Source of the DNA: Endocalyx cinctus
Lineage: Eukaryota > Ascomycota > Sordariomycetes > Amphisphaeriales > Apiosporaceae
NCBI GenBank assembly: GCA_001600455.1
Contig: BCKC01000012.1
Span: forward strand, 62,001-126,000
Direction: 5' to 3'
Length of the DNA stretch: 64,000 bases
Every line of letters begins with the position of its first letter. Position 1 is the stretch's first letter. The position numbers were made by a program, and so were the translations under genes. The notes under the pieces are model-generated. The model ran no database searches, was not told the DNA's origin, and saw only the letters and a list, made by a program, of their open reading frames with translations. Positions 1 through 54,742 of this stretch are shown piece by piece.

Positions 1-1995
1 AGGTATCGCCGCCACCTGTCTGCATTCGGGCCAGCTGAACACGGCGATCCGGTAAGGATGGTCCGGCTGAGGGTACCCGAACGTCGCCGCTATCTCCCGC
101 CTCGTCGTGCTCCAGATCAGAGACGTCACCTGCGCCGATACCGATATGGTGGCGAGTGCTGCTCCCGACGTCGTGTGATAGAAGTGTATACATTTGTCGT
201 TAGACCCACCACCGGTCGCCACCAGACCTTCCCGCCACGGGCAGAAGGCTATAGCTTTAACGGCGGCTAAGTGACGCCAACGGTGTCTCTCGGTACCCGA
301 AGGGTAGTTCTTTACAGGAGTTGCGTAGGGGGATGCAGAGGGTAGACCGGGTGACGGAGTCTCGGCCCCCGAGCTGAAGGGGGGAGACGGCGTGCTACTA
401 CTACCTGCGGATGATTTTGGAGGTGATGGATAACCATCTATACCGTTATTCTCGGCCCAAGAAGCCGTGGACGGCGATACGGGAGTTCCGGGGAGATCCG
501 TCGTGACAACGCTTCCTTGCTTCGGCGCAACTATCCAGGGGAGTCCCATTTTGCCCTTACTTCTGGCATCCTTGTTGTTTTTGGGAGGATCGAGTATCTG
601 CTCCACGTTGAAGAGGCAGCACAGATTATCGTTTCCGCCTGTCGCAAACTGCGCTCCGTTCGATGACTAGGCTAACCCGCAGACCTGCTGCGAATGTACT
701 TTGATACGGGCGAGCAAGCTCATGGCACCCGACCAACTCTGCCGAGTCACTTCCTAGGGCTCCGGCCACTCAACAGAATAGTAGTACAGGTCGCCTACCT
801 CATCCGCCACCAGTAGGTCTTCTGTCTGCACGGGAACTCCGGGATTGGAAGGATTGAGAGAGGGTCGGATCGTAACCACAGGTCGCCAGGAAATACACGA
901 CACCGGAGCAAGCTGCTGAGTTTCGAACCGGGGTAGCAAACTGTCAAAGAGGGACATCAAACTGAGGGTGCCATTTGACCGTCCAAATGCGAGGATCGAC
1001 TTCCCTCCTTGCGTCGAAGAGAATGCTATAGAGGTTAACCAGGAGCCATCTTTGACGCCGGCATTCAGTAAGGTCACCCCCAAAGATTCGGACCAACCAT
1101 ATAACAAATTGCCTAATCCGACAGCGAGGGTGCTGCAGTTCCTGGAGTAGGCCATTATAGAGCAGTAAAAGTCATCCCGAAGACCTGGTGCATCTAACAC
1201 TCTATAGATGAGTTAGAGTGGTACAGATGTGGTGAGCTGTATAGCTTGAACTTACTTGAACGGTGCATTAGGCAGTACACGATGTCCTTTTTCAATTTCT
1301 GTTATTGTGAGTATTAATTTATTTTTTTTATTTCATTAAAAAAAGACGCGAATTGAAGGATAAATATAACAAATGAACTTACGGGGAATATGGTGGTCGT
1401 TTTCCCATTCAGTTCCGGTCCAAGTGGTCTTCGTGATACGTAACGAAGGTCTGCGTCTATAGCTGATCCTGCACCGCGGGAAAGTGGAATATCCGTCGAA
1501 ATCTAAAACACGCTGCACACGATTCATTCCCAACGCCGAAGCAAGTCGACCTTCGTGCTTCTCCTGCTCTTCCTCGGATTTGGGTCTAGATTCAGAGAAA
1601 GATGTGATATAAAGGGGCGCGTTTGTCCCAGAACCCACCAAACGGCCACGACCGGCTTCCACCACCACCACGCCGCTAGGAGCGATTCCGCCGACGGACC
1701 ATACGGCTCCATTGCTAACCTGCCGGTCACCAGGTTGAGAATGTAAAGTCAAGACGGTGCGTAGCCTTGGGTCCCCACTGTCGGTAGACCGAGATGCCCG
1801 TCGAGCAGCGATAGCGGCCCGGTCAAAAGCAGAACGCGTAGGTGTATGGAAACAGAAAGCGTCGGTTGCAGCCTCATCGGTTCTTAGAAGTCTCTCGGTA
1901 GCGGATAGCTCGTGCGGCTGTTTGTTACCGCGGAAGCGATCTGATAACGGCGTACGAAATGGAACGAAGCGGTCAGGCAAGGTAATAATAGGCAT
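1..1995 (-). CDS. AMA1: Cdc20/Cdh1/Ama1-family APC/C activator with two in-frame TAG codons, partial
   Basis: Substrate adaptor of the anaphase-promoting complex; the Ama1 branch is meiosis-specific in yeasts. Start at 1995 gives a C-box (DRFVPFR, residues 8-14) at the very N-terminus. Exons are 1995-1383, a 43-base exon 1298-1256, and 1201 to the window edge. The introns (1382-1299, 1255-1202) have GTAAGT donors, and joining restores the family block KVLDAPGLRDDFY before the WD40 propeller (SVEW, HSQQVCGLA, GGNDNLCCLF). The frame meets TAG at 754-756 (codon 368) and 667-669 (codon 397), then stays open for 222 codons to the edge. Both TAGs sit where relatives have Trp (after WPEP and after CGLA). 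Eleven other Trp codons in exon 3 are intact. The C-terminus lies outside the window. The family is certain; Ama1 rather than Cdh1 is inferred from the short N-terminus and the UAG pattern. Confidence 0.85.
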
Positions 1996-2820: not shown

Positions 2821-4167
2821 ATGGCTAGTGTATGTATGCATCTGCTCGTGTCGAAATGAAATAAATTAAACAATTCAAACTTCGTTCTGATCGTCATGTA
2901 GCACGGAGTTGCTCGAACTATTCGAGCCGCGCGAACCGAGGAGCAACGCCGCCAGGAACTAGAAAAGATAACAAAATATCGCGATATAGAGGACTCTATT
3001 CGATCTCACGTTTCGAAAGAAGCTTACGACGACAAGGACCTCTTCCAGCTCACCTCGAAGCTTCTTCGTTTGAACCCAGAATATTATACAATATGGAACG
3101 TCCGTCGACGTTGTCTAATATCTGGCTCATTATCCAAACAATCGGATGGATCGTCGCCCTGGAAGGCGTCGCCGAATACTTCTCTGAGCGCCACTACGAA
3201 ACCGTCATCAGACGACTCGTCGCCCTCGCCGTCGGCCACGACCCAGCCAGGCCTACCCTCCCCGATAGCTGGGAAGAATGGTACTACACCTGAGGATAAA
3301 GAGGTCGATGAATACACAAAGGAAGAAAACAGTAGGGAGAAGAATGGAAACTTCGAATCCGACGCGCGCACGCTTCAGTCCGAGCTTAACTTCACCGTTC
3401 CCCTATTGATGGACTTCCCTAAATGCTACTGGATATGGAAATACCGGAAATGGCTACTCGAAGAAGCTATCGTACGCCTGCCCATCCCGGTCGCGAGGGC
3501 TATTTGGGAAGCAGAGCTGGCTCTCGACACGAAGATGCTCACTCGTGATCGCCGCAACTTTCATGCGTGGGGGTACCGTCGGTACGTGGTAGCGAAGCTC
3601 GAGAGCGCCGCCCTCGACGGAAAGAGCATGATTGCGGACGAGTTCGGATACACAAAGAAAAAGATAGATGACGACCTGTCCAACTTCTCGGCCTGGCATA
3701 ATCGGAGCAAACTAATTCTGCCCCTGCTGGACGAACGTGGGGCCGACGACGCGGCTCGCGCTGCGTTCCTCGACGAAGAGCTCACCCATGTTCGCGAGGG
3801 CTTGGATGTGGGACCCGACGATCAGAGTCTGTGGTATTATCATCGGTTTCTCGTCTCTCAGATTGTTGACTACGTAGGTAAACCGACGATCGCGCCGCGA
3901 CTCACGGTCGAGGAGAGAATATCGTACTTGACGAGAGAAATAGAAGAGATTAAGGACCTGCTCGAGGATTACAGGTCGGTCAAGTGGATCTACGAGGCTC
4001 TTTTAGACTACACGTTGATGCTAGAACATCTTTCTACCGATTCAGACGAACAGGTTCAGCTGGGTCGACAAGTTGAAATCAAGAGCTGGCTAGAGACGTT
4101 ACGGAAGCTAGATCCCATGCAGTCTGGCAGATGGAACGACGTAGAGAAACAGATAAGGATACAATAG
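2821..4167 (+). CDS. BET4: Rab geranylgeranyltransferase (GGTase II) alpha subunit
   Basis: Alpha subunit of the cytosolic enzyme that attaches geranylgeranyl groups to C-terminal cysteines of Rab GTPases, working with a beta subunit and Rab escort protein. The PPTA repeats are visible: NPEYYTIWNVRR, FPKCYWIWKYRKW, NFHAWGYRR, NFSAWHNR and QSLWYYHRF. Start choice: an in-frame ATG at 2896 is followed at once by TAG, so it cannot be the start. That TAG is the 3' end of an intron 2830-2901 (donor GTATGT), and a 9-base first coding exon (2821-2829) restores the family N-terminus MASHGVAR. A Ser/Thr/Pro-rich, poorly conserved insert (about 80 residues) separates the first repeat from the second. 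It ends 98 bases from the convergent phosphatase gene. Confidence 0.9.
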
Positions 4168-4265: not shown

Positions 4266-5831
4266 TCAAAGCGGTATCGTGCCGTTGCATTTCCCCACTA
4301 TCATATTCGCATTAACGCCCACCAATCCGTCAAAATAGGCCAGCAGCGTCTCGACAGGTACCATATCCATCTTGCCCAAACTCGGGTTCGAAGAAGTCAA
4401 GATACGACCACCAAACAAGACGCGCACGTAGAACTTCCCCTCCTTCTCGTATAATTCGAATACGATCTCGCTACCCATACCAGGCCATACCATAACATCG
4501 ATCTGCAAAATGCTGAGCACCCGGCTCACGGATCCGTCGTGCGCCACGTTGTGGTAAAAAATTGGCGTGCCTTCGTCCCGGCCTTCGACGACGGCTCGGA
4601 AGTGGGCGCTTAATTCCGCGATCCACACGCCAAAGGACCCGACCGAAGCGGATAAAGACGTGTTCGCGTCGCGGTACATGTGCGAGTATTCCCACTGACC
4701 GATACGGTAGACCGTATCCGCCAAATTCTGTGTGACGCAATTAGTCGAGTTGACGCCGTCGACCAGCTCGCACGGCAAAGGTTTATCGTGACATTGGCGC
4801 GCCGAGAGGTTGTCGAAGTAGTGATCGAAACTAGCGTGGAAGCCCGAGTCGTCGGAGGTAACGCCGGATATCTCGTCCAGAGTGGCGTATAGGCCGGCGG
4901 CGGAGTCGAGATGCCGTCGCCAAGCGGCGTTAGAGGACGACTTGATGGCGTTGAATAGCGTGCTCCCCTCGCCGCAGGTGTACTGCGGTTCAAGGCTGTC
5001 GACGCCGACGGCTTCGACGACGAGAGGGATCGACGAGGTGATGTTCCACGTTCCCGAGATCACCATACCCGCTACCTGGCTCGTGATCACGTTGTTAGTG
5101 ACGCGGTACGTCACCTTTTGCGCCCACTCCTCCCGGGGGGTGTCTCGAGACGGGAGGAAGTTAAGTAAGGTGTGGTACACCTCGTACAAGTCGCGGCCGT
5201 GCACCCAGGCGTCGTCCAATCCTTCCGCCGTTAGCTGCGGGAATTGACAGGTGCCGATCCAGCCCGAAGGCACGAACGGGTTAACGGACGATAGGTACCC
5301 TGTCCAGTAGCCCCGCGCGGGCGGTTTGTCACCGCTAGGTGAAGTCAGATCGGCGCCGTAGTAATATAGTCCGGAATCGTTGCAGTCCCAATGATAGGAC
5401 TCCACGGGGAAGGCGTTACTAGAGTAGGGGGTTCGCTTATGGTGACGTTGAATCTTTTTAATTTTTAATTTTTTTTTTTTTTTCAGCGCTACTAGTCGAA
5501 ATCTGATTATTTATTTGAATATTTGATTACTTACTACCTCAACATATCGTAACTGATACTCGGCGTCGGGGACGATGTACTCAGTCTTCCGGACGTGCGG
5601 CATATTGCACCAGTTATATGTTCCGTAGCGGTCATCGGGCGTATCGGAGCTGTTAAATATGAAGCCGTAAACGCCGGTGCCGTTCAAAGCGGACCCGAGA
5701 TTGTTGATCGAAGTCGAGTTCGGCGCATACCAGCCTAGGTCGACGGTTGCAGCGGCGGTGACGGAGGCGAACCTACCGGCGGATCCCGATAGGGACAGTG
5801 GTAGCAATCGAAAGAATGACAACTTCATCAT
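4266..5831 (-). CDS. Secreted histidine acid phosphatase
   Basis: Branch-2 histidine phosphatase (acid phosphatase/phytase clan) that hydrolyses phosphomonoesters outside the cell. Exon 5831-5535 and exon 5453-4266 are joined over an intron with donor GTAAGT, giving 494 residues. The splice rebuilds the active-site motif RHHKRTP (residues 102-108, a variant of RHGxRxP; His103 would be the phosphorylated residue). The HD proton-donor pair is at 404-405. The N-terminus is hydrophobic and signal-like. There are several N-glycosylation sequons and paired cysteines. The frame stays open 57 codons upstream to another ATG at 6002, but the 5831 start (next to ATG 5828) gives the better signal peptide. 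The exact substrate is unknown. Confidence 0.88.
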
Positions 5832-11751: not shown

Positions 11752-13423
11752 ATGCCTCAAGTACGATCAAAAGGATTCTTGAAAGAATCAAAGGCGAAAA
11801 AGCCAAAGGTTCAAGTGAGTCGCCCGACCCCGTTCTTTCGTATTAATTTTATGTCCAAGCGTCCACTCCGTTTAATCCATGGATCCATTATACCATTAAC
11901 ACGTGATCTAGAAACTTGAAGATGCAGATGATTATCACGAAGCTGCCACGGAAAATGAAGATGCCATGGGAAAGCATCGGGCAGGCGACCCGGCCAAGTC
12001 CATGAGATTCGCCCGCAGAGCTCTTGACTTTTACGCGCAGGGTGTGGAACGATTCCCTCGGAATTTTGACCTCGCATATAACAAAGCTCGGTTAGAGCTC
12101 GAGGTCGCAACTCATCCCGTCCTATCGCAAGCCCTCGACGTACCCATAATGGAGATGCTTCAGCAATCTCTATCTTCTCATCAGCATGCCCTGACCTTAG
12201 ACGTCGAGAATGCCGATGCCCTTTTCAATACGTCTCAAGTTCTCACGGCACTGGCCGAAAATATAGCCGAGGGAGATGATTTACCTGACGCCGAGGCTCT
12301 GAAATGTTTGGAACAGGCACTCGACTACCAGAAACGATGTTTTGAGATACAGGAGAAACATTTTAATCAGAGTCGTCGGGAGATCAACCAGCTAGAGGTA
12401 TCCGACGATACTTCGGAGGATGCCTCCGCAGCCGGGGGGGCGCCGTTAAAGGAAGAAGAGGGCGAAGGAGAGGAGCAATGGGTCACCATAGTAGAGCCCG
12501 TGACAGAAGATGCGCTTTTAGACACCGTCGTTGCCCAAATCAACACACTCACAACTCTCTGCAGTATCGTAAACTCAACAATGTCGGGCTCCGGCTGGGA
12601 TGCGAAGCCGGAAATATCCGTGCCTTGGCTCGAGTCGTACTCTACGAAGCTCCTGAACGGAATAGTACCAGATCTTCTTACCGCGTACGGCGAGGCCTTA
12701 CAGGCTCGGGTGTCGGAAATCGACCTTGCCAAAGCCGTCTTTTTGGGCATGTTCTTCGAACTTAGCTTTCGGGCGGGCGCCATTGACGTGTCTACATATA
12801 AAAATGAGCTTGAAGCCGCCTTCTGCACCGGCATCCAGAATCCTAACCCTACGTCGGCTGACTTCGTACTAGCCTATAGTCGTGCTCTAATCTCTTTTAA
12901 TAGCGCTCTCAACGACGTTCGTCCCCCGGTAGACGGCAATAGTACTTACCCTCCTCTGCGATGGTCAGGTCTGATGCAAGCTCAGACGCAGCTCACGTCG
13001 GCCTCGAAGCTTCCTTTCGTAAAGGTCGATAAGGAGACATTAGCCACAACACATGGTCTACGGGGCGATATAACCATGCTCATGTGCGCTCTGGCGGAGC
13101 CCCGATTCGCGTTCAAGACGGCGGCCGGTATGCGGGAACAACTCTTAACCAATGCCAAAGTGTACTACGAAAATGCGATGAAGCTGTTCGGAACGCTTGG
13201 CTCGGAAGGCGCAGATGAGAAAGCACTGTACGAGTTGAAGGTTGCGGCACTCGGTATGACGGTCCTCCTGAAAGATAAGGAGCATATGTCTGACCGCACT
13301 CCCTACATTCAACAAGTGTTTGGTAATTTGTTCAAGTCGAAAGGGGAGGGATGGGTCATGGATCGTCTAGAAGAATTAATAGATGAAGGCATCTTCCAAG
13401 CGGATCCTTTTGGGATTCGGTGA
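11752..13423 (+). CDS. TPR-repeat protein
   Basis: Exon 11752-11814 encodes a basic 21-residue start, then an intron 11815-11911 (donor GTGAGT, acceptor CTAG) leads into exon 11912-13423, giving 524 residues. The N-terminal half shows helical TPR-like pairs (ALDFYAQGVERFP..FDLAYNKARLELE, then SSHQHALTLDVENADALFNTSQVL and LEQALDYQKRCFE). An acidic insert rich in Asp/Glu follows (about residues 160-190), then a helical C-terminal half. Such proteins act as scaffolds or chaperones. It recalls fungal TPR proteins of the Acl4 kind, but I cannot assign it. A GTGAGT overlaps the stop codon at 13420, so a further 3' exon cannot be excluded. Confidence 0.85.
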
Positions 13424-15606: not shown

Positions 15607-16833
15607 TCATGCCGAAAACCCATTTCTTCCTTTGATAGCCCCAAAAGCACCACTGGTCCTCCCAAACATCTCTCTGAGGTCTCCGGCGATTTTATCGGGC
15701 AACTCGAAAGCAGCAAAATGGCCGCCACGGTCATGTACTTTATTCAACACGAGATCACCCAGCGTTTTATTCCAAAGTGACGGAAAAACCAAGAGCTCTT
15801 TCGGAAAGATACTGCATCCGATTTTAATGTCTTCTAGGTAGACCGAGCGTATGAATGACTGGGTCTCATCTTTGCTATGCGGGGTATCGTAATATATCCA
15901 CAAGGAAGCCAACGGTCCGGGCGTACTAAACCAGTAGATACTCACCCATTTGCAGACTTCGTAGTCCGTCCAGGGATACTCGTCGGTCCAATCACGCAGT
16001 TTCTCGTAGATCCAAGCCAGAAGACCGACGGGTGAATCCGTCAGACTATATCCTATGGTCTGCGGTTTTGTCTTATGTTCAGCCCAATAACCCGATCCTT
16101 CCTCTTGAAACCACTTACTACGCCGGAACCCATCGAGTTCGGCCTGCGTGCGACCGTTCTTTTGGTCCAACTCATAAAGTTCGGGAAAACGCGTCGGGCT
16201 CGGCTCTTTCGGCTGACATCCGTTATAATGACTAGCTTTGCAGCTCTGGGGGAACAGATAACCTAAGTACCGACTGACGGCATACCCGATGTCCCCTCCC
16301 TGAGTCACGTACTCCGAATACCCTAAGACTTCGACCATGAGCTTTTGAAACACTTCGGCAGTCTGGCGGGCGCCGAAGCCGGGCTTCTTGACGAGGGACG
16401 AAAATCCGTAATTGGGCATCGACGGCGCGACCACGTCGAAGGACGGGTGGGTATCGCCGCCGTCCAGCAAGAGCGGGAGCATCTTCGAGACCTCGTTAAA
16501 ACTTCCTGGCCACCCGTGACAAAACAGCAAAGGGATAGCACCGGGATTCGAACTCTTATGGTACGCGAAGTGCAGGTCGATCGGCTCGAAGCCGTCGATT
16601 GAGATCGTTGTTACGAACTGGGATAGTTCGTTTAGCTCGGCCTCCGCTTGGCGCCAGTCGAACTCGTTCTGCCAGTACGTAGCGATTCGCTTCACATCGG
16701 CAAGAGGCGCACCGTAATCCCAGCCGGCACCCTCGATTTCGGTCTCAGGAAAGTCAGTTAGCGCGAGTTTGGCCTTGAGCCGATCAATCTTTGCTTGAGA
16801 GATGGCGATTTTATATGGCCTAATTGGAGACAT
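15607..16833 (-). CDS. Microsomal-type epoxide hydrolase
   Basis: Intronless, 408 residues, alpha/beta-hydrolase fold with the N-terminal EHN (epoxide hydrolase N-terminus) region in the first 110 residues. It adds water to epoxides to give diols, in detoxification or secondary metabolism. Visible catalytic parts: oxyanion motif HGWPGS (106-111), nucleophile Asp181 in QGGDIG, and general-base His372 in GGHFAAFE; the acid is probably in the 330-350 region. The DYGAPL and WRQAEAELN motifs of the EHN region are present. There is no clear N-terminal membrane anchor, so it may be soluble. The next gene upstream (DUF3632) is on the same strand 525 bases away; a P450 lies 7 kb further on. Confidence 0.93.
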   Translation of the reverse strand: MSPIRPYKIAISQAKIDRLKAKLALTDFPETEIEGAGWDYGAPLADVKRIATYWQNEFDWRQAEAELNELSQFVTTISIDGFEPIDLHFAYHKSSNPGAIPLLFCHGWPGSFNEVSKMLPLLLDGGDTHPSFDVVAPSMPNYGFSSLVKKPGFGARQTAEVFQKLMVEVLGYSEYVTQGGDIGYAVSRYLGYLFPQSCKASHYNGCQPKEPSPTRFPELYELDQKNGRTQAELDGFRRSKWFQEEGSGYWAEHKTKPQTIGYSLTDSPVGLLAWIYEKLRDWTDEYPWTDYEVCKWVSIYWFSTPGPLASLWIYYDTPHSKDETQSFIRSVYLEDIKIGCSIFPKELLVFPSLWNKTLGDLVLNKVHDRGGHFAAFELPDKIAGDLREMFGRTSGAFGAIKGRNGFSA

Positions 16834-28274: not shown

Positions 28275-31180
28275 TCAACCTGTGCGGTTCTTCATACTTC
28301 CCATTCTTCCCAAGTTGAGCCATTTTCGCTTCCCTGCGCTCGGTGGGGCCACGGGCGTCGAGTTTCCGCCACCATTTTCAGGAGCTACGGTTGTCGTTGG
28401 AGTGCCGGGGGTTGGTATAATTGACTTGTCCGCCGGGTCTTGCGGCGGGACTTCCCCGGCGTCCGCCACCTTGATATTTTCCAGCGTAGGCGCTCTGCTG
28501 CGCATAATAGGGGGTGGCGTCGCGCTATTTAGCTCGTCCTCTAAGACGCCTGCGGGGCGCGGCACCCACGGTGCGGTGCTAGGGGGAGGCACGCTACTTC
28601 TTCCCGGCACTTTCGCCGCATTCGTTACCGGGGAAAATTGATGTGCCGGTGGCATAGGTACTTGGGACGCATTTTGAGGGGCTCCACCGCCACGAGACTC
28701 GGAGCCGGATCGTTTAAACAAGGAGTTCAAACCAAGGGAGCGGCCTCTTGGCTGGAGCGATATGGGAGGGTAATGATTTCGCTTGCCTGGCGCTCCGGTA
28801 TCTACTTGCTGTACTCTTGGTGGACTCTGAGGGGTCGAATCAATACTATTGCTTCGCATCCGGGCACCCATCGAATGCCTAGTGGAGTTCTTCCAAGTCT
28901 TCCCGGTCGACGGTGGTGCGGTATAGGTGCTTCCGGTGTACGCATTCACGCTAGACCTTCGAGAAGGAAGGTTCGTCGGCCCTTTAGACACGTCAAAGGT
29001 CCCCCTCCTCGGTGTCGAATTTGCCGGGAGCATCTCATCCATCGGATCTCGCTTTAGGGCTGATACGGGAGAGCCGAGGAACCCGTTACCCTTCAAAGCG
29101 CCGAAGATGACATCTGTCTCCCATCCACCACCGTCTGCGGGGAACGAAAACAAGTCAGGAGACGTTGATCTATCATTCCCGTGTTGCGAACTCGTACCTG
29201 ATTTGAACTGATCCGGTCTCGAACTCTCGCGCATCCATTGGTCAAAATTACCCACGACCCGACGCGCATCCACACCACCGTCATCCGAGTCAGAATCGGA
29301 AATAAAACTATCAGCCCGGGAATGCGCGCTTATAGTCTCGGCCGCCGAATGAGGTCGCGGTGGAAGGGACTGAGCTAGCCGGCTGAGACTAGAGATCAAG
29401 TCCGTATTGATAGTAGGAAGCGGCGGAATATCTTTTGCGCCAGGGTACGCAGAGACTCCTGGCTGGTTTCTCGCCTGTCTCGAAAGGCTGTCCTGAGAAC
29501 TTGACTGATTTTGGTGCTTGCGAAGGACGGACGAAGACACGGTATCGGGAGTGGGTGGTAACGTATGCGAATTCGCGAGCTCTTTTTGACTTGGATAACC
29601 GGTATTCACTTTCTGCAGGGTCTTGCGCTTATCTGCTTTTGTTCCATAAAGTTTTGAAGCTTCTCCGAAGCGAGAGGCGGTGGGGGTTGAAGAGTCCCAG
29701 TCCTGATTAGCAGGAGGTGGTCCGGTAGTACCGTCTCCTGCGATCATCTGCCCCTCTAACTTCTCAATTCTCTGTAACGGAGAATCTGTAGCGAGCATTC
29801 CAGCCACCGATTGTTTCCCGGACGACATACTAGCCCCGTTTGTAGGAGCAAATAAGGGTTTTTGACTCGGGGCAAAGTTACCCTGAAGCTTCCAGCTTTC
29901 TTTACCGGTATCTATGGCTGTGGTGGGCGACCGATCAATTTCGGTACCATCGCCTCCCAGGTAAGTCACGTCCCCCGGGGGTGATAACCCGCCAAACTCC
30001 GGCTCCTGGTCGCCTTTAGAACCATATATGCTAAGGAACGAGCTCTCGCTCAGCATGCTTAAACTCGGGCTCGCGAACCGATTGAGTTCACTGTAGTCGA
30101 CGCTAGACTCTGATATTTTGCGTATGTGGAAGAGACTGCTTCGGCTTCGTAGAACCGCGTTTCTAAGATTCTCCGTCTGTTCACTACGCTCCGACAGAAA
30201 GCTAGGCATTCTAGCAAGTTCTCTGGCAGCTTCGGGGGAGATCTGGTCGAGATCGATAGGTTTCATCTTAGGTGTCTCGACGGTCATGACCTCGGAATCA
30301 TCCGATCGCAATTGATGATACGGCCCGTCTATCTCTATTCTTCTCACCATCTCCTTCTCCTGCTGCAGCTCTTCCACGGTGCCTTCAAGTTTTACAATCA
30401 TATTTACGGCTTCTTCAATAGCTTTGTCTCTTTGTTCCAATTCTGCGTTAAGATGATCGTGAAGCTGTACTAGGTCTTGATTTTCGCTTTCAAGTTTACC
30501 GACCCTTTTCTCTAGTTCGGTTTGTCGCTCACGTCGGTGAAATAGTTCGAGTTTTAAGTCAAAATTCTGCTTATGTAGTTGTGAAAGAGCCTGTACGACG
30601 AAGGGGTGGGGGAAGTGTTAGCGAGCCCGGATCCAATCAAGCTACGTAGAGACGTATAACCGGCATTTCGTACCTGTTCCATAGATCTAACACCCATGCT
30701 CTCTTCGGTCGAAGCATCGTCGGCGCCGCTTAGGCCGGTTAACTTGGATCCTCGTCTTCCACCGTTCCTCTTTGCCGGGGAACTGTGCGAGCTACCCTCG
30801 TGAAAATCGCTCGTAGCGCTTACATCGCCGCTCGACCTCCTCGCTAACTTATCGCTCTCGACCTGCCTCTCTTTTTGCAACCTCTCCTGGAGCAGTTTTG
30901 AGACGGCCGGTGAACCAAACCTGCTGGATTCATGACTGGACTGCCTCGTCAGTTGGGGTGACGCCCTGGGATTTATCGGGCTCGTGCCGCATTGGCTACC
31001 GTGATACCTGTGCGTGTACTGCGGTTTGCTCGTGCTCATTGTATCGCGTAATCGGGAAGACGTGCTGCTCGAACTTTTGGCGGTTATATGTGTGTTTGAT
31101 GTACTAATTGTGCTGGCTCGGGAATGCGCGCGAGGGTGTAGACGTTCCCCAAACTCCTTGGGGCTCGCTATACCATCCAT
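28275..31180 (-). CDS. Cnn_1N-domain (centrosomin motif 1) protein, probable MTOC factor
   Basis: Exon 31180-30674 and exon 30590-28275 (intron donor GTACGA, acceptor CAG) give 940 residues. The first 165 residues are Ser-rich and disordered. The splice falls at the start of a coiled-coil block (about 167-260) containing SQLHKQNFDLKLELFHRRER, the pattern of the Cnn_1N motif, by which Mto1/Pcp1/centrosomin relatives recruit gamma-tubulin complexes. A short helical stretch (PEAARELARMPSFLSERSEQTENL) follows, then about 550 residues of disordered Ser/Pro-rich tail ending in a basic GKRKWLNLGRM segment. The spindle-pole or septal MTOC role is inferred from the motif only. Confidence 0.8.
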
Positions 31181-34966: not shown

Positions 34967-37838
34967 CTACTTGACGATCATATGGTCATTTCCGAAGTTA
35001 TTGCCACGACCCTGTACATAAAAGTTTTCCCGTCCGATTTCCCCGGTCGTGTACTCATTATGATGATAAAGATGATTATTGCTTCTCAACGTAGTATTAT
35101 TAAGCTGATCGTGTTCTCTAGTAGCACCCCTAGGTGAGGTAACGTTATTGTGGTGGTGGATATGATGACGATGGAAGTTTTTGTCCCTACCTGTACCGTA
35201 AACCCCGGGACTGGGACTAAGACTGAGGTAAGGTGTATTGTGATGACGGGGATACGCGGGGGAAATGCTAGCTACGGGCGAAACGGGGCCCGAGCTGTAG
35301 TATCCGTAGCTACCGTTATAACTACTATCGTCGCTGTACAATGCAAATTCAGAGGATGGCAGTGATCGAGGAAGATTCGTCACTAGTGCGGGCAAGAGAA
35401 ACTGAGAGCCCTCTGAAATAGTGTCGCTGTTACCACCATAGTGGCTGAAACCAGCATGAATAGCAGTAGGAGACGAGGGAGACGTGTCGATGTCCATCTC
35501 GATACCCTGCACCATGGCGTTCATCGTCTCTTCGATCGTGTGTTGTTCCAAACCAAGATCTGCATCTTTCGACGCCGCATCCCCATTCGCGTTCTCATCT
35601 TTTACGCGGTGATTATCCTGATGTTCCTCGCCGAGCTCTTCCACGATACTCCCGCCCTGTCGCGTGGTAGGAATAAGAGAAGTATTCGCGATACCCGGCT
35701 CCCAATTTGCCGGGCCGTGGTACGCCGAAGAAGGCAGAGCCGGGCTCAGCGCCGTCTTGGAGCTTCCGGGTGTCTGCCCCGCTATCTTAAGAAGCTGCTC
35801 GGCGAACTTGGTTCGGCTGTTTGGGCTCGAGCTCAGAATCTTGACGAAAAACTCAACGGGGTCAACGTGCACGCTTCCCCTCCCGCCTTGTCTCAGAACG
35901 TCGAGGTCCGAGTTGGCTGCTCCCAACGACGAAGGACCCCTAGATCCTCTAGAGGCGGCAAAGTCGCACGCCCCCAAGACGCTCACGGACCAGGACCCGA
36001 TCTCGAAGATCTTCTCGAATATGCCCATCCCGTGTACCTCGATGGCCGAGCTCGGCAGCGATTGCAGGATAGAGGCCGTATCTCGTGCGATGGATAGAGG
36101 GAACTCGAACGTCATGCTCTCGTGCTCGGCCTTACTAGACACCAAATGCTGCCGAACCGAAGACTGCCAGACGACCAGCCGCAACCACTGCTGGGTCATG
36201 AATAGATCCGCCTTTTGAATCTCGGTAGGCTCGGGCCCGGGTCCGGACTCTATCGTCTCCGCTCTTTCTTCATCTTCCTCTCGTCGTAAGTAAGGGCCGG
36301 CGGAAGGCCTCGGTGTATCGCATCCTCTCTTCGAGCGTTCCGTAAAGTTGAGCGGTTGCGCCAAGCTCTTTTGCAGGTTCAGATACGTAGCGGCCGATAC
36401 CTTCGGATCGCTACCCTCGTTCCAAGCGTTGAGAAAATTCTCGTCGAGCGGTACGTAACTCCGAACTAGTTTCAAAAACCCGGCGTGAATATCCGGAGCC
36501 TCGTATTCGTGGCCCCTGGTCGGCAACCGCGGAGTCTTGCGCAGTATAAGGGGCTTATTACGGAGGATGGCGAAGCTACGCTCCGTGACGAAGAGGATCC
36601 AGAAGACGCGTAGACGACAGAGCTTATCCGTAGCATTCAGATTCTTGTAGGACTTCTCGTCGTGTAGCCGCAGATCGGTCGCCAGATTAAGCGCCTCCCG
36701 AAGGTAGTACCAGCTTTTCCGGTTCTGGTTGATCTCGAAGAAGCTCGTGCTCAGCCAGAAGCTCGATATAACGGCCGAGAGCGAGAGGTCGCCGACAAAG
36801 TCGTACTCTTGAACCGGCAGCTGCCTCACCGCGATGCACTCGTCGAGGAAGAAGCGGCCGACGGCCTCCCAGCTGGGAAACGGTGGCGGCTCCCCGTCCG
36901 TAGACAGCAGCGACTTCCCCGACATGTGAAAGGACGTCAGGGCGCAGAGGGCGTAAACGAGGTTCTTGTTTTTCGGTGTTAATGGTCGCTCTTCAGACAA
37001 CATGTTTCTTACTAGGGGCATGTACAGCAGCGGCATGATGGGGTAGATGTGCTCATAATACAGGTCGACGCACCGGGGTACTAGATCGAGATAATTGCGG
37101 CTATGCGGCCGATAGGCCTCCGTCGTGAATGGCGACACCGGTTCCACGCGATCACTGATAGAAGCGGTCCTCGACCAGGGGAGAAGCTGCGTCTGCGGCG
37201 ATGGCTCCGCGGTCACCGTTGCCGAAGTGAGTGCCGAGCTGAAGGGTTCGTTGAAAGATTCCATCGCATCGCTACCCATACTAGCAGGAATCCGGAATTT
37301 TAGGGCTTCCTCCTTTTCGCCCGCTCGAATGGCATTGATGATCCGACCATGCCCCCTTTTTGGACCCCGTTTCTTAGGGACGTGGTCTCTCCTACATACT
37401 AGGGTCGCGTCTTCGCATTTCTTGCACGGGGACCGGCCATCACAGCGAATCCCTGAGGCCATGGTTAGGTGGTGCTTCAAGACGCTTGAGAATAAAAAAA
37501 CCGAACAAGGAGTGGTTTCAAGATATGAGAGTTTGAGATACATGTTATATGCAAAGGATACGGAGATAAAGGGATCCCGCACGACGAGACAGGGCTGTCG
37601 CGACCTTCTTCCCACCAAATAAGCAGGTAGATTTAGACTTACGCCTCCTTCGACAATGATCGCATACCGCCCTCTTCGTTAGGGATAGGCGCGCAGGCAC
37701 AGACCCAACGCCGCGATTCACGCCGATTTCACCTTCGTCCACCTCTGTTTTCACCGTTTGTTTCGTATCACTAACATCGGATGAGAGGGGAATTACGGGC
37801 GACGATAGCGGTTGTATTATATTGTCGTTACACTGCAT
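34967..37838 (-). CDS. Zn2Cys6 transcription factor with fungal-specific regulatory domain
   Basis: Nuclear DNA-binding regulator. Exon 37838-37643 and exon 37452-34967 give 893 residues. The 190-base intron (donor GTAAGT, branch-like CTAAC, acceptor CAG) lies inside the zinc cluster; splicing yields Cys59, 62, 69, 75, 78 and 85 with the canonical C-X2-C-X6-C-X5-C-X2-C-X6-C spacing. A basic KKRGPKRGHGR linker follows, as in sugar-responsive regulators. The middle region (LVPRCVDLYYEHIYPIMPLLYMPLV onward) is the fungal_trans domain. The C-terminus is disordered, His/Asn-rich. The intron reads open in frame with exon 2, so a naive ORF call begins too early. The target pathway is unknown. Confidence 0.92.
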
Positions 37839-52957: not shown

Positions 52958-54742
52958 ATGGGCGCGTTTAATTCTGTTCTCGAATGCAAGTCCCATTTTA
53001 ATATCACAGTAAACTGCAATATTACCGGGAGTAATCAGACGACTCCAGATGGGCAGATCGCTCTTCCATATACTCAACTCGGTCTTTACAGCCCCGGAGA
53101 ATTCCCAGGAGATCCCGACATCGCCGGCAGCGGCATCTTAGGGGTATTCTTGGCCGTCACCGGCTTTGCTGTCCTAGCGAGCATAATCGATATAGTATGG
53201 CAACTTCACAAGACGACTAGAGGGTGGAAGAAGAAGTATCAGACTAGGCCCGAGATTTTCACGCCAGATATTCAAAGGAGCATAAGCGTTTCTGAGATTT
53301 TGGAAACGCTTGTTCTCGCCTGCAGCGATCAGCAAGTATTCACGGGCGCCGCCTACGCCCTTACCCTGCGATACTGGAGAGGTTGTACGATCTCGGCCTA
53401 CCATTACAACATCGTCGCCAACATGCTCTTGCTTACCTGCGCCACGCATCTGATGTCCGTTACCATCGTCCGCAATTATTGGAAGTATCCCTGGCTGGCC
53501 ATACTACGCATCATCGCTGTGTCCGGTCTATTCCTCGTCACGGGACTGCTTCTGGTTAACCAAAATTTCAACAACGAGTACAAGTTCCCCACGGGCATAC
53601 CAGACAGAGATAATTCTAACAGCTTGGTGTTCTTACCCGCCGCTTGCTTCCAGTATACTAGCGGGTCGGTGTCTGAGACATTTCAACAGAGCACCATGAC
53701 GGCCCATGATTTTTTAAAGGTTCTAGAGAACTCGACGCCGGGTAACAGAATTCAAGGATTCAACTATTACATCTTGACCCTTTTATACTACGGCGCGGCC
53801 CTCTTAGCCGAAGCAATCAGGTTCATTCGACGAGGGAGGAGCAGGCCGGGATGGAGAGCCAGGGTCGGTGAATTCTTTGGATCCATCTTCCGCCTGGGTT
53901 CGCTTCCGAGAAAAGCTGTCCAGATCATTTTCCTCCTTTACATCTTCATCGGGGTTGGACTGGGTAGTGCCGTGACCGTCGTCTCTGGGAGGTACATCTT
54001 CGGGCTTAGAGCCTGGGTCGCCAACTCCGGATGGATGGAAACTCCGAACCCAGAATACGATGCCTCTAGCTTTGGTCAACTTGTACCTATATTCTCTACG
54101 GCCTTGATCTTATTCAGCTTCGCTCAAATCATTAGTGGTAAGTTGCATCACCCCTCTCTTTATCTTCTATTATTCCAAGCGGAAAGTAGCTGATGGGCCT
54201 TAATAATCACAGAGAAAACGACCCGACACGGGAACCGCAAGTACGCGAACGACAAGATTCCAGACCAAACGGGCACCATCGAATTCCTCGACCCCTCGCA
54301 CTACGACCTCATTCCACCACAAGCTCCTGCCGTACCCGAAAAGATGAGTATGACCTACTTTGGAGCCGCCGGTGTCCCGTCTGCTTCTTCCCCACCTACA
54401 CTCGGCGACATTCAATACCAGTCTACTTGGGGAAGTACTATATCTCTTTCGAATTCGAAAGCGAACGTGACTCCTAAGACGTCTTATTCGCCGATGCTCC
54501 CTGGATCGGCGGTCACGACGCCGGGGATGTATGGTCAAAATTCTGTTTCATCTACAGCACGGCCCAGTAGCACTACTAGAAATACAGGGAGCCCGCCGTT
54601 ATCGACTTATTCGAGAAGAGCAGCGTCGACGCCCTTACCTTCGCAGCCGTTCATTTCGCAGCCGCTCACTTCGCGTAGTTCACTCCCTCTGGATGCTCAT
54701 ACCCCTGCCGAGGCCCAGCGACTTATGAATAATGGAGTTTAG
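52958..54742 (+). CDS. Polytopic membrane protein, fungal, unknown function
   Basis: Exon 52958-54137 and exon 54213-54742 (donor GTAAGT, acceptor ACAG) give 569 residues. The N-terminal 55 residues carry three or more N-glycosylation sequons and probably face outside. About seven membrane segments follow (near GILGVFLAVTGFAVLASII, VFTGAAYALTLRYW, YNIVANMLLLTCATHLM, LAILRIIAVSGLFLVTGLLL, YYILTLLYYGAALLAEAI, VQIIFLLYIFIGVGLGSAV and LVPIFSTALILFSFAQII). The second exon is a cytosolic Ser/Thr/Pro-rich tail. The layout recalls uncharacterised Sordariomycete membrane proteins; no named domain is recognised. It begins a run of three plus-strand genes. Confidence 0.82.

Follow-up and report, generated by a model that had tools for sequence, protein, structure and literature searches.

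The 64,000-nucleotide stretch of Endocalyx cinctus DNA analyzed here (contig BCKC01000012.1, G000:C12:62001-126000 in a genome assembly of 44.76 Mb and 15 contigs, referred to as the window) harbors at its left end a gene for an AMA1-type activator of the anaphase-promoting complex/cyclosome (APC/C), the frame of which is interrupted by two TAG codons at positions where the family has tryptophan. AMA1 is a meiosis-specific APC/C activator and is present as a single gene. Judged from its sequence, it very probably belongs to the genes that depend on premature-stop correction, the adenosine-to-inosine (A-to-I) editing of UAG to UGG in sexual tissue, as it combines an in-frame UAG at a functional codon with a frame that is intact on both sides. 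The weight of the evidence is carried by the recurrence of the first of these stops (site 1) in relatives, and not by the coincidence of two TAG codons in one gene.

The gene is encoded on the minus strand and overruns the left edge of the window, but is complete once 10 kb of flanking sequence is added. Its coding sequence (CDS) then comprises three exons and 706 codons, with both splice junctions inferred from sequence (Table 1). The protein contains PDRFVPFR close to its N terminus and has GDVIR as its C terminus, which we take to be a C-box-like motif and the isoleucine-arginine (IR) tail of APC/C activators, respectively. The CDC20/Fizzy WD40 domain (PF24807) matches the stop-free piece upstream of site 1 (E 1.5e-13, 51.1 bits) as well as the one downstream of the second stop, site 2 (E 3e-32, 112.5 bits), each of the two pieces scoring below the curated whole-domain cut-off of 200 bits. 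Solved relatives of the downstream piece are Slp1, Cdh1, and Cdc20. Among the homologues, P0062, P0065 (Bcama1), and P0115 are named AMA1, and most matches carry general WD40 names. These features support the initial annotation of the gene as an AMA1-type APC/C activator, a member of the Cdc20/Fizzy superfamily. In a quick tree, the closest rows are three Biscogniauxia, one Camillea, and one Xylariomycetidae sequence, with support that is not strong; Biscogniauxia belongs to the Xylariales (NCBI taxonomy), and the host is a Xylariales fungus.

The two TAG codons lie in one frame, 29 codons apart. Codon 368 (site 1) is directly 3' of EWPEP, and codon 397 (site 2) is found between CGLA and SSNG. 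The claim that TAG alone breaks the frame holds beyond the window edge, as the 706-codon spliced frame contains no TAA, TGA, or third TAG before the terminal TGA at G000:C12:61737-61739. Similarly, where eleven nearby tryptophan codons had been described as intact, 16 TGG codons are intact over the whole CDS. A homologue search found 520 sequences, of which 120 were listed, and the residue counts refer to those 120. At site 1, they have W (71), D (1), or Y (1), or lack the residue (47); at site 2, 117 have W (87) or F (30), and the residue is missing in P0015, P0046, and P0107. Both stops thus occupy family tryptophan positions, as had been proposed, with phenylalanine as an alternative at site 2. 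Sense codons offer 248 one-step paths to nonsense, 16 of which are TGG to TAG, and the chance of two such changes is about 0.004 when all changes are equal and 0.085 with transitions only. Because of this latter figure, the presence of two TAG codons at tryptophan positions is by itself a modest coincidence.

Clades were cut from the quick tree, in which the query itself falls in no starred set, and were labelled from organism names and general knowledge, with four labels checked via a taxonomy look-up. W368 is missing in 43/56 models of the query's Xylariales clade, whereas it is kept in 37/37 listed models of the Leotiomycete clade and missing in none of the Sordariales clade (W 11/12, Y 1/12), and 4 of the remaining 15 listed rows have a gap at site 1; as the length limits of the searches favor short models, neither these fractions nor those of the two further searches below are frequencies in nature. 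The start of the gap varies among the 47 gapped models, and 30 of them resume exactly at the residue after codon 368. Seven of these 30 gaps span 12 residues (36 nucleotides, nt) and one spans 7 residues (21 nt), which is too short for real introns, and 18 are of 57 nt, a length compatible with an intron. A false phase-0 intron that ends at codon 368 requires AG as the last two bases of this codon, which fits TAG and not TGG. The gaps ending with codon 368 look as if the AG of TAG had been mistaken for a splice acceptor.

Two further searches used the intact piece upstream of site 1 (N-half; 88 matches, every one examined) and the piece downstream of site 2 (C-half; 347 matches, 120 listed). 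Exactly before site 1, 43/88 N-half matches stop, nine of them with NCBI names; one (P0307) stops before site 2, and 44 at neither. Among the 120 listed C-half matches, 23 have Met 379 as their first residue and 4 have residue 370, just past site 1. Eight of the 43 N-half matches can be paired with a C-half match, the longest contig being equally long in both (P0253/P0130, P0248/P0128, P0250/P0126, P0270/P0221, P0271/P0235, P0272/P0121, P0277/P0127, and P0280/P0188), and the organism name is identical in three of these pairs. The Parahypoxylon N-half and C-half carry the consecutive tags AAE478_006318 and _006319. In five of the 43 N-half matches (P0264, P0267, P0268, P0274, and P0285), the last residue is N or Y; as no xxG codon encodes either, these ends cannot be phase-2 splice donors. 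Of the 43, P0278, P0279, P0280, and P0285 group with named Fusarium rows in the tree, and for P0285, which ends in Asn, a phase-2 donor is excluded. Among named rows, the site 1 break is confined to Sordariomycetes, the class known for such editing. The alignment of orthologues that had been proposed as a check on stop conservation therefore gives a divided answer at the level of protein models: the site 1 break recurs in the Xylariales and probably represents TAG, whereas site 2 is nearly private. A separate observation is that P0244, a truncated AMA1 N-half, is labelled 'ubiquitin-like protein atg8'.

A count of 12 state changes at site 1 on the tree was rejected as an estimate of gains and losses, as the choice of rows drives the figure. 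The rows were all 120 listed homologues, the 43/88 N-half matches ending at the site, and 21 that were hand-picked, 20 from the C-half search and one from the N-half search. The label W, meaning no stop, was given to 20 of these 21; among the hand-picked rows P0192 actually has F at site 1, and no residue was recorded for P0307.

A-to-I editing is described as favoring adenosines in a hairpin loop that are preceded by U (-1) and have a purine (A or G) at both +1 and +3 (PMC11156358; PMC9600606). The context of site 1 (C-U-[A]-G-G-A-A) has the preferred base at all three positions, and its A is placed in the terminal loop of a predicted hairpin. The 81-nt fold around it has -33.5 kcal/mol and a z of -2.49, with 2/200 shuffles equally stable. 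Hairpin-loop placement alone is nevertheless weak evidence for editing, as indicated by two controls on the same predictions: 30/87 UA adenosines of the AMA1 CDS are in predicted hairpin loops, as are 5/18 Trp positions at +/-30 nt.

Beyond these controls, several observations weigh against the editing of AMA1. At site 2 (C-U-[A]-G-U-C-A), U at -1 and G at +1 fit the preference but the C at +3 is not a purine, folding +/-20 nt but not +/-30 nt puts the A in a hairpin loop, and the stretch is less special (z -1.29, 22/200 shuffles equally stable). The only fair parallels to site 2 are P0015, a Nemania model with a gap across site 2 and W at site 1, and P0307, with its open reading frame (ORF) ending exactly before site 2. 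Plain TGG in relatives had been named as a point that would speak against editing, and W does stand at site 1 in 13/56 rows of the Xylariales clade, including Xylaria, Nemania, and Rosellinia, although the other 43 lack it. Furthermore, TAG in the relatives is deduced from protein models and not from the codon read as DNA, and the other 38/43 N-half ends are, taken singly, compatible with a stop or with a phase-2 intron donor. Identity of the query to six relatives is reduced over residues 369-396 (0.64-0.82, versus 0.79-1.00 among the relatives themselves), which a sceptic may read as splicing or relaxed constraint, and is very slightly lower over residues 222-367 (0.81-0.84 versus 0.83-0.88). 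Lastly, no stop was found in the matched parts of SPO22, C5 DNA methylases, and DCP1, the families of other Fusarium genes with edited stops.

Could the gene simply be dead? The competing idea raised in the initial annotation was that repeat-induced point mutation (RIP) had turned two TGG codons into TAG, and plus-strand CpA to TpA gives exactly this change, with the transitions-only chance of 0.085 for two such changes on its side. RIP, however, acts on repeats, and the genome holds one AMA1-type gene: the AMA1 piece matches itself and one 30%-identical stretch on contig C1, and the CDC20-type WD40 family has 131 genome matches, of which those on C1 and C5 alone are above cut-off, with AMA1 recovered as weaker pieces. 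An intact paralogue that would make this copy redundant is thus absent from these genome matches. The gene does not stand out from the whole window in its RIP indices (0.97 and 0.91, versus 0.93 and 0.98), and 19 CAA/CAG codons are intact besides the 16 TGG codons. Moreover, in the conserved columns of residues 222-706, the query has the family residue in 84/88 before the stops, 15/17 between them, and 151/152 after them, and over residues 525-706 its identity to six relatives (0.88-0.96) resembles that among the relatives themselves (0.89-0.96). AMA1 appears to be without visible decay, with constraint that persists beyond the stops to the IR tail, and site 1 breaks recur in many species. A pseudogene or RIP damage is therefore highly improbable.

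Splicing could also remove both stops, as an exitron (in-frame intron) starting with GTAGGC at codon 354 would excise them if it reached the TAG of codon 397 (length 132 nt), codon 403 (150 nt), or codon 419 (198 nt). The donor/acceptor pairs are present in the sequence, the reduced conservation of residues 369-396 agrees with such an event, and in Fusarium FgBUD14 splicing and editing are reported to act on one such stop (PMC11156358). The excision would nevertheless cost at least 44 propeller residues from a segment that is conserved where translated, 15/17 conserved columns between the stops still match in the query, and the gap borders vary among relatives, with some gaps too short for introns. 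This makes an exitron very unlikely, if the least so of the alternatives weighed here. Readthrough, in which an amino acid is inserted at UAG without editing, is the least probable of them. Although residues other than Trp are tolerated at site 1 (Y, F, Q, R, H, L, A, or T in some homologues of the C-half search), translation past two successive stops would yield hardly any product, every residue present at site 2 in the 240 rows examined is W, F, or Y, and the named site 1 breaks are confined to Sordariomycetes. There is a very slight chance that the A-to-I editing is carried out by a different deaminase, such as an OLD-type enzyme as in the Neurospora OLD-ZAO pair, but OLD enzymes are reported chiefly to edit their cognate zao genes, and the editing of Fusarium AMA1 is of the sexual-stage kind.

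The favored explanation, A-to-I correction of UAG in sexual tissue, has direct precedent. Liu (2016; PMC4817773) reported 69 genes with UAG to UGG editing in perithecia that had been hidden by false introns, including FGRRES_10728, the FgAMA1 gene of Fusarium graminearum and the orthologue of the gene described here, and a 2024 review (PMC11156358) lists FgAMA1 among the genes needing premature-stop correction. Deletion of FgAMA1 yields round or oval ascospores (PMC9499528), and further literature describes its editing as important for ascospores; in Fusarium, others have demonstrated both that AMA1 is edited and that ascospore formation makes use of this, which supports the recoding hypothesis of the initial annotation. 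The gene described here has a pair of stops separated by 29 codons, and its likeness to FgAMA1 is drawn at the level of the gene. PUK1 (FGRRES_01058, F. graminearum) also has two UAG codons, both edited and both hidden by automated annotation in a false intron (PMC4817773), but its stops are in tandem and it encodes a kinase, whereas the stops of AMA1 are apart and in a WD40 protein. The first PUK1 site is common to Fusarium and Neurospora (PMC11156358, PMC5381528) and is thus an established case of a restorative site that different orders share.

The closest parallel in annotation is found in CHE1 of Fusarium, in which a conserved premature UAG is accompanied by three faults: the stop taken as true, a downstream Met start, and a false intron (PMC11169179). 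All three are also present at AMA1 site 1, and such faults have been described for edited stops elsewhere (PMC4817773). CHE1 differs in being edited in hyphae and in a site reported from closely related Fusarium species, whereas AMA1 site 1 is spread in the Xylariales. Individual editing sites were mostly unconserved in a comparison of Sordaria, Pyronema, and Fusarium (PMC5381528), and 34/47 Fusarium genes of the premature-stop kind have an event common to two Fusarium species (PMC4817773). The breadth of the AMA1 stop in the Xylariales was not found in the literature passages searched, and the main papers on Fusarium AMA1 and restorative editing may mention it. Both the phenomenon and the gene are already known in Fusarium, and the possible novelty is the spread in the Xylariales.

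If this fungus edits AMA1 as Fusarium does, the gene would be maintained in a state in which its mRNA, without editing, cannot yield the full protein. The tRNA deaminase Tad2-Tad3, together with its cofactor Ame1, would convert the adenosine of both UAG codons (368 and 397) to inosine in sexual tissue, both codons would be decoded as UGG (Trp), and the whole WD40 propeller with the C-terminal IR tail would be produced only after editing. Both sites would then be edited and both needed; for site 2 alone, editing is likely. In hyphae, a leaky transcript would yield a 367-residue product with the C-box and a partial propeller and without the IR tail, and this incomplete product would leave APC/C-Ama1 off outside sex, perhaps the very purpose that the stops serve. 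Ame1 belongs to the DUF726 family, and its MV pair has been called critical (PMC11087585). Three DUF726 genes are found in the genome, one of which has IV one residue off the MV place of F. graminearum Ame1 (counted by eye), which is suggestive only. The DUF726 gene at G000:C3:3369707-3370273 contains a TAG within the matched stretch that may be intronic. PUK1 was not identified among the 139 genome matches of protein kinases, some of which contain TAG, introns being inseparable in them.

In the models compared, site 2 gives the impression of a recent stop with a limited distribution. Only 3/120 listed C-half matches start at residues 399-403, and these are ambiguous as a sign of a site 2 stop. 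Another break in the relatives affects W620, which is missing in 29/56 Xylariales-clade models, 3/37 Leotiomycetes, and 0/12 Sordariales. The NCBI-named Daldinia models P0124 and P0131 end directly before W620, and 28/323 fetched proteins have QVAAIP or a similar sequence as their very end, the last residue being P in 27 and S in 1; some of these rows have the Phe at site 2 that is seen in Leotiomycetes. The query genome has TGG at codon 620, to the left of the window. A third editable stop is not claimed here, as a phase-2 intron donor (xxG TAA) would yield the same model ends; the break is either a further editable stop or a conserved intron. At residue 622, the query has one additional Gly (PWEGGEH), in a column that is empty in 119/120 listed homologues.

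As to the rest of the window, 10 of 15 ORFs were scanned against Pfam at E 1e-5 (Table 1). The gene next to AMA1 encodes a protein prenyltransferase alpha subunit, and the epoxide hydrolase-like, cytochrome P450, and transcription factor genes are possibly a metabolic gene neighborhood.

Table 1. Features of the window, in window positions
Feature	Position	Strand	Details
AMA1 exon 1	1383..1995	-	ATG at 1995-1993; PDRFVPFR is residues 7-14
AMA1 intron 1, inferred	1299..1382	-	GTAAGT...CAG, 84 nt; joining gives frame IEKGHRVLPNAPFK
AMA1 exon 2	1256..1298	-	43 nt
AMA1 intron 2, inferred	1202..1255	-	GTAAGT...TAG, 54 nt; joining gives frame KVLDAPGLRDDFYC
AMA1 exon 3, in-window part	1..1201	-	Extends to the TGA at G000:C12:61737-61739; protein end EGDVIR
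Site 1, in-frame TAG, codon 368	754..756	-	Family Trp; candidate edited A pairs with window base 755
Site 2, in-frame TAG, codon 397	667..669	-	Family Trp/Phe; candidate edited A pairs with window base 668
81-nt RNA stretch around site 1	715..795	-	Predicted long hairpin, site 1 A in terminal loop
Protein prenyltransferase alpha subunit	3070-4167	+	PF01239; transcription directed away from AMA1
ORF	4266-5405	-	379 aa; no Pfam match at E 1e-5
ORF	11966-13423	+	485 aa; no Pfam match at E 1e-5
Epoxide hydrolase-like gene	15607-16833	-	Pfam scan
Cytochrome P450 gene	24394-25734	+	Pfam scan
ORF	28275-30440	-	721 aa; no Pfam match at E 1e-5
Fungal transcription factor gene	34967-37618	-	Pfam scan
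ORF	52958-54193	+	411 aa; no Pfam match at E 1e-5

For public databases, the practical consequence is an annotation fault, as many Xylariales AMA1 models are truncated, split, or gapped at codon 368. On balance, we lean toward the notion that codon 368 is among the oldest restorative editing sites of fungi, in the class of the first PUK1 site. The UAG would have been fixed early in the Xylariales and would occur next to Fusarium-type sequences as well; much of the order would have retained it, and some lineages of Xylaria, Nemania, and Apiospora would have reverted to UGG. Selection would then have favored the stop itself as a means of keeping a meiotic activator locked, and the locked gene would have gathered additional stops, at codon 397 here and perhaps at codon 620 in relatives. 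The interest of the finding is moderate since the Fusarium case is published, and would be higher if site 1 is one old site under selection. A stop that must be edited and is nevertheless kept across much of an order would, if true, be a good system for the question of whether restorative editing is adaptive or neutral.
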